Positions 5,925-10,523 of a stretch of 64,000 nucleotides of DNA are shown one piece after another (the first letter of the stretch is position 1; every line of letters begins with the position of its first letter). The DNA comes from Mycolicibacillus parakoreensis (GTDB lineage: Bacteria; Actinomycetota; Actinomycetes; Mycobacteriales; Mycobacteriaceae). The notes under the pieces are model-generated. The model did no database searches. It was not told the origin of the DNA and worked only from the letters and a program-made list of their open reading frames with translations. A program made the translations under genes and the position numbers. Where the stretch lies: positions 2,914,001-2,978,000 of the forward strand of contig NZ_CP092365.1 in NCBI RefSeq assembly GCF_022370835.2, written 5' to 3'.

Positions 5925-7331
5925 TCAGGCGTTGACCACCAGCTGCAACCCCCGGCGGTCACGCGCGGTCTTGCGCCGCTTGCTGGCCGCCACCAGTCGG
6001 GACACCGCGACGCCGATACCGCCGGCGAAGTCGTCGATGTCGGGCAGCGCGTCGTGGTCGGCCAGGACACCGAAGTACAGGTGGTCGGCGTAGCTGAGCA
6101 CCGCCACCCCGGTGCGCAGCCGCATCGCGATCGGCGGCACCGGCAGCACCGCGGTGACCGGGCAGCCCATGATCGTCAGCGGGTGCGGCGGCCCGGGGAC
6201 GTTGGTGGCCAGCGTCACCACGCCGCGCTGCGGCAGCCGGGTCGCCAGCCGCACCGCCCACGCGGTCAGCGGGTAGGGCACCACGGCGTTGGCGATCCCG
6301 ACCACGGCGGCGCCGGCCTGCCGCTGCCCGGTGGTCTTGGTGCGGGACAGCCGCGCGTGCACCATCCGCAGCCGCTGCACCGGGTTGGCCTCCTCCACCG
6401 GCAGATACGGCAGCATCACCGACACCCGGTTGTCGGCCTTGTCGAGGTCGCCGGCCGCGCGCACCGACACCGGAACCAGGGTGCGCAGCGAATCGTGTTG
6501 CGGAATCTCGTCGTGCCGGATCAGCGTGGCCCGGTAGCTCTCGGCGAGGGCGGCCAGGGCCACATCGTTGACGGTCACGTCGAAGGTCCGGCAGACCCGC
6601 CGGACGTCCTGAAGCCCAACCCGCACCGCCGCGTAGCGGCGCAGGTTGGTCATCGGCCCGTTCAGCGACGACGCCGGTGCGGCACGGAGCAGTCCGGCCG
6701 CGATCTCGCCGGCCCCGCGCACCGCGCGGGCGGTCGCCGCCACCGTCGACACCGACGCGTCGCGCAACCCGGTCCACCAGTCCCCGCGGGGCCCCGGGCG
6801 CGGCAGTTCGACCGCCGCCTCGGCGCCCTCGGGGACCGGGTAGGCGCCGGCGACCCCGTCGTCGGACAGGCCGGCCAGCATGTGGGCGGTGGCGATGCCG
6901 TCGGCGATGCAGTGATGGACCTTCATCAGCATCGCCCAGCGGTCCTCCGCAAGGCCCTCGATGACCCAGATCTCCCACAGCGGTCGAGCGCGATCCAGCC
7001 GCCACGCCATCATCTCGGCGACCAGCGCGTGCAGCTCGCTCTCGCCGCCGGGGGCGGGAACGCCGATGCGTCGCACGTGATCGGCCACATCGAAGTCGTC
7101 GTCGTCGACCCATTCCGGGGGGCCGATGTCCAACGGGCGCACCCGGGCGCGCTGTTTGAAGCGGGGGCAGGCGGCCATCCGCTCGCCCAGGGTGGACAGC
7201 AGTGCGGACTGCTCCGGGACCGGTCCGGTCAGCACGGCCAGCGCCCCGATGGCCAGGCTGACGTGCGGGTCGGAGTCCTCCGCCTGCAGGAACCCGGCGT
7301 CCAGAGTGGTCATGCGGTTCTCGTGGTTCAC
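5925..7331 (-). CDS. tgs1: Triacylglycerol synthase Tgs1 (WS/DGAT family)
   Basis: Wax ester synthase/diacylglycerol acyltransferase that makes triacylglycerol from acyl-CoA and diacylglycerol, the main storage-lipid enzyme of the dormancy response. The 468-residue protein has the catalytic HHxxxDG motif (HHCIADG, 139-145), the SSLNGP and NDVALAAL segments and the NVPGP motif near the C-terminus. GTG 7331 was chosen since VNHENRMTTLDAGF matches the Rv3130c start and a GGGAGG ribosome site lies upstream. It reads divergently from the broken nitroreductase, across a region with DosR-like sites, as in M. tuberculosis, and towards tmk (28 bp gap). Resemblance to Tgs1 is stronger than to other paralogues. 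Confidence 0.93.
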   Translation of the reverse strand: MNHENRMTTLDAGFLQAEDSDPHVSLAIGALAVLTGPVPEQSALLSTLGERMAACPRFKQRARVRPLDIGPPEWVDDDDFDVADHVRRIGVPAPGGESELHALVAEMMAWRLDRARPLWEIWVIEGLAEDRWAMLMKVHHCIADGIATAHMLAGLSDDGVAGAYPVPEGAEAAVELPRPGPRGDWWTGLRDASVSTVAATARAVRGAGEIAAGLLRAAPASSLNGPMTNLRRYAAVRVGLQDVRRVCRTFDVTVNDVALAALAESYRATLIRHDEIPQHDSLRTLVPVSVRAAGDLDKADNRVSVMLPYLPVEEANPVQRLRMVHARLSRTKTTGQRQAGAAVVGIANAVVPYPLTAWAVRLATRLPQRGVVTLATNVPGPPHPLTIMGCPVTAVLPVPPIAMRLRTGVAVLSYADHLYFGVLADHDALPDIDDFAGGIGVAVSRLVAASKRRKTARDRRGLQLVVNA

Positions 7332-7397
7332 GGCCCCAACCTCCCAGTGCGGCGACACCCTGTGCCCCCACTATCGGGGTTCGCCGGGGTCGCCCGC

Positions 7398-7417
7398 CAG
7401 GGCCAGAAGTCCCCGGT
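7398..7417. promoter_or_regulatory. DosR box-like site 1
   Basis: This 20-bp stretch matches the DosR consensus TTSGGGACTWWAGTCCCSAA well in the core: GGG at positions 4-6 and AGTCCCC at 12-18, with the flanking T/A pairs degenerate. It sits 67 bp upstream of tgs1 and between tgs1 and the divergent nitroreductase remnant, where DosR sites occur in M. tuberculosis Rv3130c/Rv3131. Assignment is by eye. Confidence 0.55.
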
Positions 7418-8213: not shown

Positions 8214-9867
8214 ACGCGCCGCCGGACTGTTCGGCCCGCAGCGCCAGGTTGCGCAGCCCGCTGCGGGTGATCGGGGTGGGCAGGCCGCACCCGTCGTCGC
8301 TGACCTCGATGCACAGTTCGTCGTCGACGCGCACCTGCACGCTGACCGTGGTGGCGCCGGCGTGGCGGACCACGTTGCTGAGCGCCTCGCGCACCACCGC
8401 CTCGGCGTGGTCGGCCAACGCGCCGTCGACCACCGAGAGCGGACCGGCGAAGTGCACACTGCTGCGCGGCCCGGCGTCGGCGAACCGGGCGAGGACCGCG
8501 TCGATACGCTGGCGCAGCCGGGTCACCGCCGTTCCGTGCAGATCGAAGATCGTGGTGCGGATCTCGGAGATGACGTCCTGCAGGTCATCGACGGCGGCGG
8601 CCAGCCGCTGTTCGACATCGGCCGAGCCCGCCAGCGGGATCGCGCCCTGCAACGACAGCCCCACGGCGAACAGCCGTTGGATGACCTGGTCGTGCAGGTC
8701 GCGGGCGATGCGCTCCCGGTCGCTGACCACGTCGAGTTCGTGCATCCGCCGCTGCGAGGTGGCCAGCTGCCAGGCCAGCGCGGTCTGATCGGCGAACGCG
8801 GCCATCATCTCCAGGTGGTCGTCGCGGAACGGTACACCGTCGGCGCCGCGCATCACCACCACCACCCCGACGACGGTGTCGGTGGCCCGCAGCGGCAACA
8901 CCAGCGCCGGACCGGGCCCGTCGACACCGGCCAGCACGAGGCGGTCCACCCGGTCGGGGCGGCGGTCGGTGAACGCCGCGCCCACCACGGTGTCGGCCAC
9001 CGGGACCATCCGCCCACCGAGACCGGCGGTCGCGGACCCGACGGTCTCGATCACCAGCAGCTCCTCCGGCGGGTCGGTGTCGCTGTGGCGCACCGGGATC
9101 GCCACCAGCGCGGCGTCGGCGCCGGTGAGCTTGGCGGCGTCCTCGGCGATGAGCCGGAACGCGGTCGCCGGGTCGCTGCCGGAGAGCAGCTCGGTGGCGA
9201 TGTCGCGGGTGGATTCGATCCACGACTGGCGGGCCCTGGCCTGTTCGTAGAGCCGGGCGTTGGCGATCGCGCTGCCGGCCGCCGCGGCCAGCGCCTGCAG
9301 CAGCACCTCGTCGTCCTCGCTGAACGGCTGGCCGCCGGCCTTCTCGGTCAGATAGATGTTGCCGACCACCCGGTGGCGCACCCGGATCGGCACCCCCACG
9401 AAGGTGCGCATGACCGGGTGGTGGGCCGGGAAACCCACCGACGCCGGATGCTCGGCGAGGTCGTCGAGGCGGATCGGGGCCGGATCGTTGATCAGCGCGC
9501 CCACCACGCCGTGGCCCTCGGGCAGCCGTCCGATGCGCGCCACGGTCTCGTCGTCGACGCCTTCGTAGACGAACTCCATCAGCCGGTGGTGGCGGTCGTG
9601 GACCTCCAGGGCCCCGTAGCGGGCGTCGACGAGGTTGGTCGCCGCGGAGACGATGGCGCGCAGCGTGGCGTCGAGGTCCAGCCCGGTGGTGACCAGCAGC
9701 ATCGCCTCGACCAGCCCGTCGAGGCGGTCACGGCCCTCGACGATCTGCTCGACGCGCTCCTGCACCTCACCGAGCAGTTCGCGTAACCGCAGCTGCGACA
9801 GGGTGCGGCGCACCGGCGCCACCCCCGGGTCCTCGGTGTCGCGGCGGGCGCCGCCGGTGGCGCTCAC
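8146..9867 (-). CDS. devS: Haem sensor histidine kinase DevS (DosS)
   Basis: Senses oxygen, NO, CO or redox state through haem and phosphorylates DevR. The 573-residue protein has two GAF domains (about 60-205 and 225-370), with a conserved haem-ligand His at position 150 in GAF-A (HHPVMR; H149 in M. tuberculosis), then a HisKA_3 domain with phospho-accepting His392 (RIARDLHDQ) and a HATPase domain ([17 protein letters not shown]). The GTG start at 9867 overlaps the devR stop (GTGA), so the two are co-translated. The N-terminus [13 protein letters not shown] fits DevS closely. Convergent with, and overlapping, the nitroreductase remnant. Confidence 0.95.
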
Positions 9868-10523
9868 CGGTCCACGGCGGGCCGGCCGCGCTGCAGCTTG
9901 GTGGCGAACACCGCCGCCTGGGTGCGGCGCTGCATCCCGAGTTTGGCCAGCAGCCGCGAGACGTAGTTTTTGACCGTCTTCTCCGCCAGGAACATCCGGT
10001 CGGCGATCTGTTTGTTGGTCAGCCCCTCGGCGAGCAGACCCAGCAGGGTGCGCTCCCGGTCGGTGAGCCCGGAGAGCGGATCGGGGGCGACCTCGGCGCC
10101 GCGCAGCTTGGCCATCAGTGCCGACGCCGCCCGGTTGTCCAGCAGCGATCGGCCGGAGCCGACCTCTTTGACCGCCCGCGCCAACTCCATGCCCTTGATG
10201 TCTTTGACGACGTAGCCGCTGGCGCCGGCCAGGATCGCATCCAGCATCGCCTCGTCGGAGGTGAACGACGTCAGGATCAGACACCGCAGATCGGGCAGAC
10301 GCGCCAACAATTCCCGGCACAGCTCGATGCCGTTGCCGTCGGGCAGGCGCACGTCGAGCACCGCGACATCGGGGGTGACCGCCGGGATGCGCGCCAGCGC
10401 CTCGGCCACCGAGCCGGCCTCGCCGACCACGTCGAGGTCGGGGTCGGCGCCGAGCAGGTCGATCAGGCCGCGGCGCACCACTTCGTGGTCGTCGACCACA
10501 AAGACCCGGACCGCGCCACTCAT
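9864..10523 (-). CDS. devR: Dormancy response regulator DevR (DosR)
   Basis: NarL/LuxR-family regulator that switches on the hypoxia/NO dormancy regulon, including tgs1. The 219-residue protein has an N-terminal receiver ([11 protein letters not shown]; phospho-accepting Asp57 in [12 protein letters not shown], equivalent to D54), the linker, and a C-terminal LuxR-type HTH ([36 protein letters not shown] region, about 155-205). ATG 10523 follows a strong GGGAGGAGG ribosome site. In M. tuberculosis devR follows and is co-transcribed with the universal stress gene Rv3134c; here sahH lies upstream instead, so the promoter arrangement must differ. Confidence 0.97.

Follow-up and report, generated by a model that had tools for sequence, protein, structure and literature searches.

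The 64 000 nt stretch of Mycolicibacillus parakoreensis DNA analysed here (contig NZ_CP092365.1, positions 2,914,001 to 2,978,000; hereafter the window) carries a core of the DosR (DevR-DevS) dormancy system, a sensor of oxygen and nitric oxide, between tmk and sahH. At 5252–12165, gene calls and family scans of the window sequence place tmk(−), tgs1(−), an acg remnant(+), devS(−), devR(−) and sahH(−) in a row, six genes identified by family and structure searches. The middle four have the order and orientation of Rv3130c–Rv3133c, as the original prediction held; the full Mycobacterium tuberculosis order Rv3130c–Rv3134c is tgs1-acg-devS-devR-usp. The features of the interval are as follows.

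5252..5896, minus strand: tmk, thymidylate kinase (NF005923, above cut-off)
5903..5908, minus strand: putative leaderless tmk promoter, TAAGCT, a TANNNT-type −10 element 6 nt ahead of the tmk start
5925..7313, minus strand: tgs1, wax ester/triacylglycerol synthase (TIGR02946, above cut-off)
7400..7413, minus strand: DevR-box-like site GGGACTTCTGGCCC, 13/14 match to the 14-mer
7431..7444, minus strand: DevR-box-like site GGGACTTTCGGCCA, 13/14 match to the 14-mer
7554 or 7587..8213, plus strand: acg remnant, Rv3131-like flavin mononucleotide (FMN) oxidoreductase (NF047509, partial)
8146..9849, minus strand: devS, haem sensor kinase (domains, structure match; possible alternative start at 9867, which would overlap the devR stop)
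9864..10523, minus strand: devR, response regulator (domains, structure match)
10579..10619, no strand: 19-bp perfect inverted repeat with a 3-nt loop, candidate sahH terminator
10654..12111 (or 12165), minus strand: sahH (TIGR00936, above cut-off)

The window DevR combines a PF00072 receiver with a PF00196 LuxR-type DNA-binding domain, as a DevR/DosR regulator does; its best structure match is full-length M. tuberculosis DevR (3c3w, E 7.5e-118, residues 5–218, gap-free), and the recognition helix is identical to that of 3c3w. DevS has two GAF domains, HisKA_3, an ATPase domain and the haem-ligand His region, the make-up of a haem sensor kinase. Its best match among solved structures is DevS GAF-A, again without gaps, and it retains the His in the ‘HP.MRTF’ stretch and the Tyr in the ‘YLT’ stretch. 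Strong family and structure matches rule out chance or mis-annotation of the core. The tgs1 start is probably 7313, although the open reading frame (ORF) opens at 7358, and 28 bp separate the tgs1 stop codon from the tmk start. Scans of the window for tRNAs, Rfam families, sigma-70 promoters and terminators returned nothing.

The upstream neighbour of devR is sahH and not a usp (universal stress protein) gene, so that the usp promoter of the Rv3130c–Rv3134c core has no counterpart here. The original prediction had noted the missing Rv3134c-type gene, and no ortholog of it was found in the 3.94 Mb (2 contigs) of the M. parakoreensis genome: what most resembles a devR-linked Usp there has 36 % identity and lies 129 kb away. 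At that identity, the Usp gene concerned (C1:3053174–3054034) was rejected as a left-behind Rv3134c; no relatives of tgs1, acg, devS or devR were recognized near it from the first residues of its neighbours. A second devRS was likewise not found in this genome, the next-best DevR match being only 37 %, nor was any other DevS or DosT-like kinase, the sole DevS match being 32 % and confined to the kinase domain. The complete Rv3134c-devRS cluster elsewhere, which would have spoken against a relocation, was thus not found in the genome searched. One full-length acg lies elsewhere, at C1:1006982.

The arrangement is not unique to this genome: the order lpqB-mtrB-mtrA-tmk-tgs1-acg-devS-devR-sahH was found in four genomes, those of M. 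parakoreensis, Mycolicibacillus trivialis (G072) and the two near relatives G362 and G215. Among named devR neighbourhoods, the nearest one showing this order is that of M. trivialis DSM 44153 (L016). These were located through tgs1 similarity, by which a relative that had lost tgs1 would escape. Among 396 genomes there were seven close tgs1 matches, the four just named at at least 77 % identity and three others (66–68 %) with different tgs1 neighbours; the same order was not met in any other genome with comparable coordinates. The prospect that it might be common to most mycobacteria, which the original prediction had left to be checked, is thereby set aside for the genomes compared. Distances between devR and tmk were taken over 148 genomes of the genus, with devR coordinates for 126 of the 133 that have a devR match, among the matches listed; where the two genes fall on separate contigs of a fragmented assembly, linkage may go unnoticed. 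In 10 of the 126, devR lies no more than 13 kb from tmk: 4.0–4.4 kb upstream on the same strand in M. parakoreensis and M. trivialis; in the other eight it is on the opposite strand, towards lpqB, at a distance of 7–13 kb. In a further 13 genomes devR is on the tmk strand, 108–225 kb distant. Nine of these were opened (all except G134, G097, G100 and G017), and six hold a complete usp-devR-devS-acg unit 135–224 kb from tmk (G105, G064, G108, G074, G045 and G006), while the distant loci of G036 and G046 are a different devRS, with devS at 43–45 %, and that of G026, the ninth, shows no devS. Over 80 devR loci, usp directly adjoins devR in 21. In one locus (L178, of G026) devR, acg and tgs1 occur together without any devS match in a 14-kb stretch. 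Judged by gene order, the relocation is real and, within the genomes examined, confined to one clade; the order, the orientation, the spread among examined relatives, the lack of any second copy in the searches and the common elements can all be read from the DNA itself. No account of the arrangement was recognized in the literature among titles and abstract openings, with subscription journals mostly outside that scope.

On the far side of tmk the minus strand continues with mtrA and mtrB, which encode a cell-division regulator, and lpqB, beyond which stands the end of a second element.

4512..5198, minus strand: mtrA, response regulator (named by synteny)
2819..4456, minus strand: mtrB, sensor kinase (named by synteny; tblastn in relatives)
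1041..2819, minus strand: lpqB (named by synteny; tblastn in relatives)
241..1011, plus strand: SPFH/Band 7 (slipin-like) gene (PF01145), last gene of a NorB-X-slipin module

The name lpqB is taken from synteny with Rv3244c. The NorB-X-slipin module occupies 12258–14579 of locus L103, its NorB-like nitric-oxide-reductase gene (773 aa; PF22085, PF00115) and most of X lying to the left of the window. The module is divergent from usp-devR in 4 of the 12 outgroup devR loci fetched (G074, G045, G006 and G071), and in a fifth, G117, it sits a few kb away in another orientation; of the 80 devR loci, 7 have NorB no more than 10 kb from devR, two of the seven being Mycolicibacter. Loci at which the module is linked to a DosR core include L180, L181, L182, L184, L216, L012, L013 and L019. 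Ten loci (eight genomes plus L014 and L015) have a Mycolicibacter-type order, NorB-X-slipin-SDR-devR-devS-acg(-tgs1)-lpqB-mtrB-mtrA-tmk-sahH. Beside NorB stands comF in L014, L015, M. parakoreensis and G215; the other eight Mycolicibacter-type stretches end before the comF position. In M. parakoreensis and G215 the module is at comF and abuts lpqB directly, with the core between tmk and sahH. Eight outgroup stretches were fetched for the comF|lpqB interval, of which three showed lpqB without comF, and in the five showing both ends (G105, G064, G074, G012 and G009) the module is absent. Five of the ten Mycolicibacter-type loci (L166, L167, L168, L171 and L173) gave no tgs1 match, and in L171 and L173 acg is separated from lpqB by other genes, one of which, in L173, is a 1590-aa ORF.

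From these comparisons the Mycolicibacillus position looks derived. The simplest reading of the gene orders is that one move of core and module, followed by local rearrangement, accounts for both the Mycolicibacter and the Mycolicibacillus forms; two nested inversions, with breakpoints beside slipin, at lpqB/tgs1 and at tmk/sahH, would suffice to turn the former, if it came first, into the latter. A single move fits the report that the Terrae and Triviale groups are one lineage sharing six indels (Gupta et al. 2018, PMC5819568). The original prediction offered, as one of two possibilities, that the block moved as one piece; the core seems to have moved together with, or close to, the NorB module and to have been rearranged locally afterwards.

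The region between mtrA and devS has a further history. Protein identity between M. parakoreensis and G215 is 89–100 % for slipin, lpqB, mtrB, mtrA, devS, devR, sahH, tetR and alkB, and lower for tmk (74 %), tgs1 (77 %) and acg (76 %); DNA identity drops at about 5210, near mtrA, and returns at about 8150, near devS. In the tgs1 tree M. parakoreensis goes with G362 and M. trivialis (approximately unbiased (AU) test, p 1.4e-4 against M. parakoreensis with G215), and in the devS tree with G215 (AU p 0.0016 against M. parakoreensis with G362 and M. trivialis); these p values are optimistic, since the groups were chosen once the first trees had been seen. A tmk-tgs1-acg tract has probably been exchanged, in the M. 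parakoreensis lineage or in that of G215, with the tmk-tgs1 pair staying together. The acg remnant matches NF047509 positions 2–152 of 319 (156.7 bits, below the cut-off of 199): it is an N-terminal half, after which about 400 bp are missing in comparison with intact copies. Its last 67 bp overlap the 3′ end of devS, and the terminal bases of acg probably survive through this overlap. Open frames of 349 aa (332 bits), 351 aa and 389 aa are present in M. trivialis, G362 and G215, respectively, so that ‘remnant’, as the gene was originally called, is apt for M. parakoreensis and for none of the other three.

Control of devR itself appears to have changed. DevR-box-like sites were scored with a 14-mer pattern. 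The window has 12 matches at 12/14 or above, three of them at 13/14, against 15–19 and 0–2, respectively, per 64 kb in five Markov controls. Two of the three 13/14 sites stand together in the tgs1|acg intergenic region and the third is inside devS. That region holds two or three DevR-box-like sites in 4/4 Mycolicibacillus, which matches the P and S sites described between tgs1 and Rv3131 in M. tuberculosis (PMC3029386). Ahead of usp-devR, tandem sites 21 bp apart occur in 7 of 12 outgroup loci. Among eight Mycolicibacter loci the best site ahead of devR scores 12/14 at four loci, 11/14 at three and 10/14 at the remaining one. No site of at least 12/14 precedes devR in any of the four Mycolicibacillus genomes, the best in M. 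trivialis being 10 and the devR upstream regions of G362 and G215 having been scanned at the 12/14 threshold only; the 130-bp sahH–devR gap of the window has no tandem boxes of the kind that mark an autoregulated DevR operon. Because no site of at least 12/14 lies upstream of devR, auto-induction by DevR is probably reduced. A strict 20-bp DevR consensus (at least 15/20) gave no site in the window, L103, L165 or L166–L173; of the 11 loci L174–L184, 5 had a single site. Ahead of devR, the window and G215 have TTAACCT and GGAGGAGG in common, plausibly a plain promoter and ribosome site. The stretch with the palindrome at 10579–10619 has a folding energy of −60.5 kcal/mol, where shuffled versions average −40; the palindrome is a candidate terminator, one that would keep devR apart from sahH. 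It was not seen in the same gap of M. trivialis, G362 or G215, and since it occurs at one place only in the M. parakoreensis genome it was rejected as a dispersed repeat. Elsewhere in the genome, the full-length acg match has a single 14-mer site 113 bp ahead of its start and a two-domain Usp match has one 124 bp ahead, so that a DevR regulon may remain.

The placement next to tmk raises the question, put by the original prediction, of whether hypoxic control spreads into tmk-mtrAB. That prediction called tmk and sahH neighbours in M. tuberculosis; the premise of a close pair turns out to be weak. Scoring of the junction covered 147 genomes with tmk, 13 of which could not be scored for sahH; sahH is immediately upstream of tmk (<400 bp) in 66, and a gap of 0.5–26 kb separates them in 68 of the 134 scorable genomes, M. 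parakoreensis and M. trivialis included. Five inserted proteins scanned from junction loci L185–L202 comprise two secretory lipases, an M23 peptidase, a metallo-beta-lactamase fold and one without a family. On this gene-order evidence, comparison shows sahH|tmk to be an insertion-tolerant site in mycobacteria, beside the MtrAB two-component system, and the tolerance is perhaps due to tmk having its own leaderless promoter. A tmk start was recognizable at 34 of 61 loci, 5 of the 34 being repeat genomes; a TANNNT hexamer ends 6–7 nt before it in 27, or 23 of 29 distinct genomes, against a chance rate of about 2 % at the allowed positions (a hand estimate from base composition). G362 and G215, beyond the 29, also carry it, and in 4/4 Mycolicibacillus it is TANGCT exactly 6 nt before tmk. 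In M. tuberculosis TANNNT is described as the main −10 element and leaderless transcripts as abundant (PMC3898074). The hexamer position suggests a leaderless tmk transcript in mycobacteria. The region upstream of mtrA looks alike by eye in 18 mycobacteria (tblastn, no statistic). Given the retained TANNNT and this conserved-looking region, tmk and mtrA probably each use their own promoter. The gap between tgs1 and tmk is 28 bp in three Mycolicibacillus and 44 bp in the fourth; a scan found no terminator-like site in it and it folds no more strongly than usual (z −0.4 in each of two species), so that read-through from tgs1 into tmk would be possible. Hypoxic control reaching tmk-mtrAB is accordingly conceivable on sequence grounds, but with a leaderless-type −10 still ahead of tmk and a conserved-looking region ahead of mtrA it does not follow from the arrangement.

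The explanation that we favour, and consider fairly probable, is of a relocated and probably working DosR core. The order of events, the promoter function and the regulation that we infer are these. The DosR core and NorB-X-slipin would have moved to comF|lpqB in an ancestor shared by Mycolicibacter and Mycolicibacillus, the Rv3134c-type usp gene being lost in that move, and in Mycolicibacillus a later local rearrangement would have brought the core to its place between tmk and sahH. DevS and DevR would still switch on tgs1 via the tgs1|acg boxes, while devR, its tandem boxes gone, would depend on a plain promoter and receive little or no feedback from DevR. The tmk gene would have a leaderless promoter to itself; transcription running on from tgs1 into tmk-mtrA-mtrB-lpqB under hypoxia is a further possibility. 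Several points weigh against this explanation. Six of the 29 distinct genomes, four of them Mycolicibacter, lack TANNNT before tmk. The sahH–devR gap of the window does have an 11/14 match, equal to that of the three Mycolicibacter loci with such a ‘weak box’, and the 14-mer is not enriched genome-wide (34 against 89 for the reversed control), so that single boxes are weak evidence. The M. tuberculosis-type place is not constant either, the core of G117 being about 2.5 Mb from tmk. Trees of five proteins do not resolve how Mycolicibacillus, Mycolicibacter and the remaining group are related (two of the trees were built without G036, a devS paralog, G026, with no devS, and G045, with a partial devS), so that the case for a single move comes from Gupta et al. 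(2018) and from the locus that the two genera share.

Compatible with that explanation, and given an even chance here, is that the core is a neutral passenger that landed at a junction which accepts inserts because tmk has its own promoter. The 0.5–26 kb gap in about half of the scorable genomes speaks for this, as does the finding that four of the five scanned inserts belong to unrelated families and the fifth to none; that both sister genera hold the core near mtrAB, in two arrangements, may however exceed chance. Regulatory capture, in which DevR-driven tgs1 transcription crosses the 28-bp gap, tmk-mtrA-mtrB-lpqB join the hypoxia regulon and selection keeps the order, seems to us rather unlikely. 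The common strand and short gaps of tgs1 and tmk, a junction with neither a terminator-like site nor unusual folding, the presence of the arrangement in all four genomes found and the survival of the tmk-tgs1 pair through a recombination event would all suit it, but TANGCT is kept at 6 nt before tmk in 4/4, the mtrA upstream region looks alike in species without the arrangement, and Mycolicibacter, whose core is on the other side, does without such a coupling. Were it true, dormancy would be coupled to DNA precursor supply and cell division. We doubt the fuller form of this idea, in which the dormancy response directly drives tmk-mtrA-mtrB-lpqB and, with devR outside its own feedback, a graded rather than switch-like response sets the level of MtrA.

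The original prediction had offered an alternative ancestral position, with the mtrAB-linked place original and the M. tuberculosis-type place derived. That two genera have the arrangement is all that was found in favour of this, and with the module missing from the five outgroup comF|lpqB intervals and the usp-linked unit widespread outside (beside devR at 21/80 loci; six complete outgroup units) it is very improbable. That the core was acquired horizontally, from a donor outside the clade, is scarcely credible: tmk and tgs1 of M. parakoreensis do not follow the species pair with G215, but devR and devS group like housekeeping genes, with Mycolicibacillus as one clade (100 % SH-aLRT), and the four genomes are still one clade in the tgs1 tree.

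On the favoured explanation of a relocated core, the locus offers a natural experiment on DosR wiring, in which sensor, regulator and target boxes are kept and the usp-linked operon promoter is gone. The setting, in a small clade, is simple: one devR, one devS and no DosT-like kinase found in the M. parakoreensis genome. DevS senses nitric oxide, and linkage of the NorB module to the core would make a joint nitric oxide response possible. The gene order may also serve as a marker for the Terrae and Triviale group.

The cluster is a variant of the known DosR core, with a likely change in the control of devR and no more than a possible one in that of tmk-mtrAB. Like that of M. tuberculosis, it has the four genes in the same order and orientation, a 3c3w-like DevR, a DevS GAF-A and boxes between tgs1 and acg; it differs, in M. 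parakoreensis, in its placement between tmk and sahH, in having no usp and no tandem boxes ahead of devR, and in the truncated acg. The Mycolicibacter loci (L014, L015, L166–L173) share with it the position at mtrAB-tmk-sahH, a devR without usp and a nearby NorB-X-slipin, whereas their core is inverted on the lpqB side and devR has an SDR gene next to it, 7 of 8 scanned loci have a weak DevR box (11–12/14) ahead of devR, and tgs1 was not found in 5 of 10. In M. avium (PMC11876180), the Usp gene MAV_4010 is numbered far from dosRS (MAV_4108–4109) and dosRS is outside the genes induced >4-fold, both of which resemble the present case; M. avium differs in that a putative DosR-binding motif is reported there upstream of dosR.

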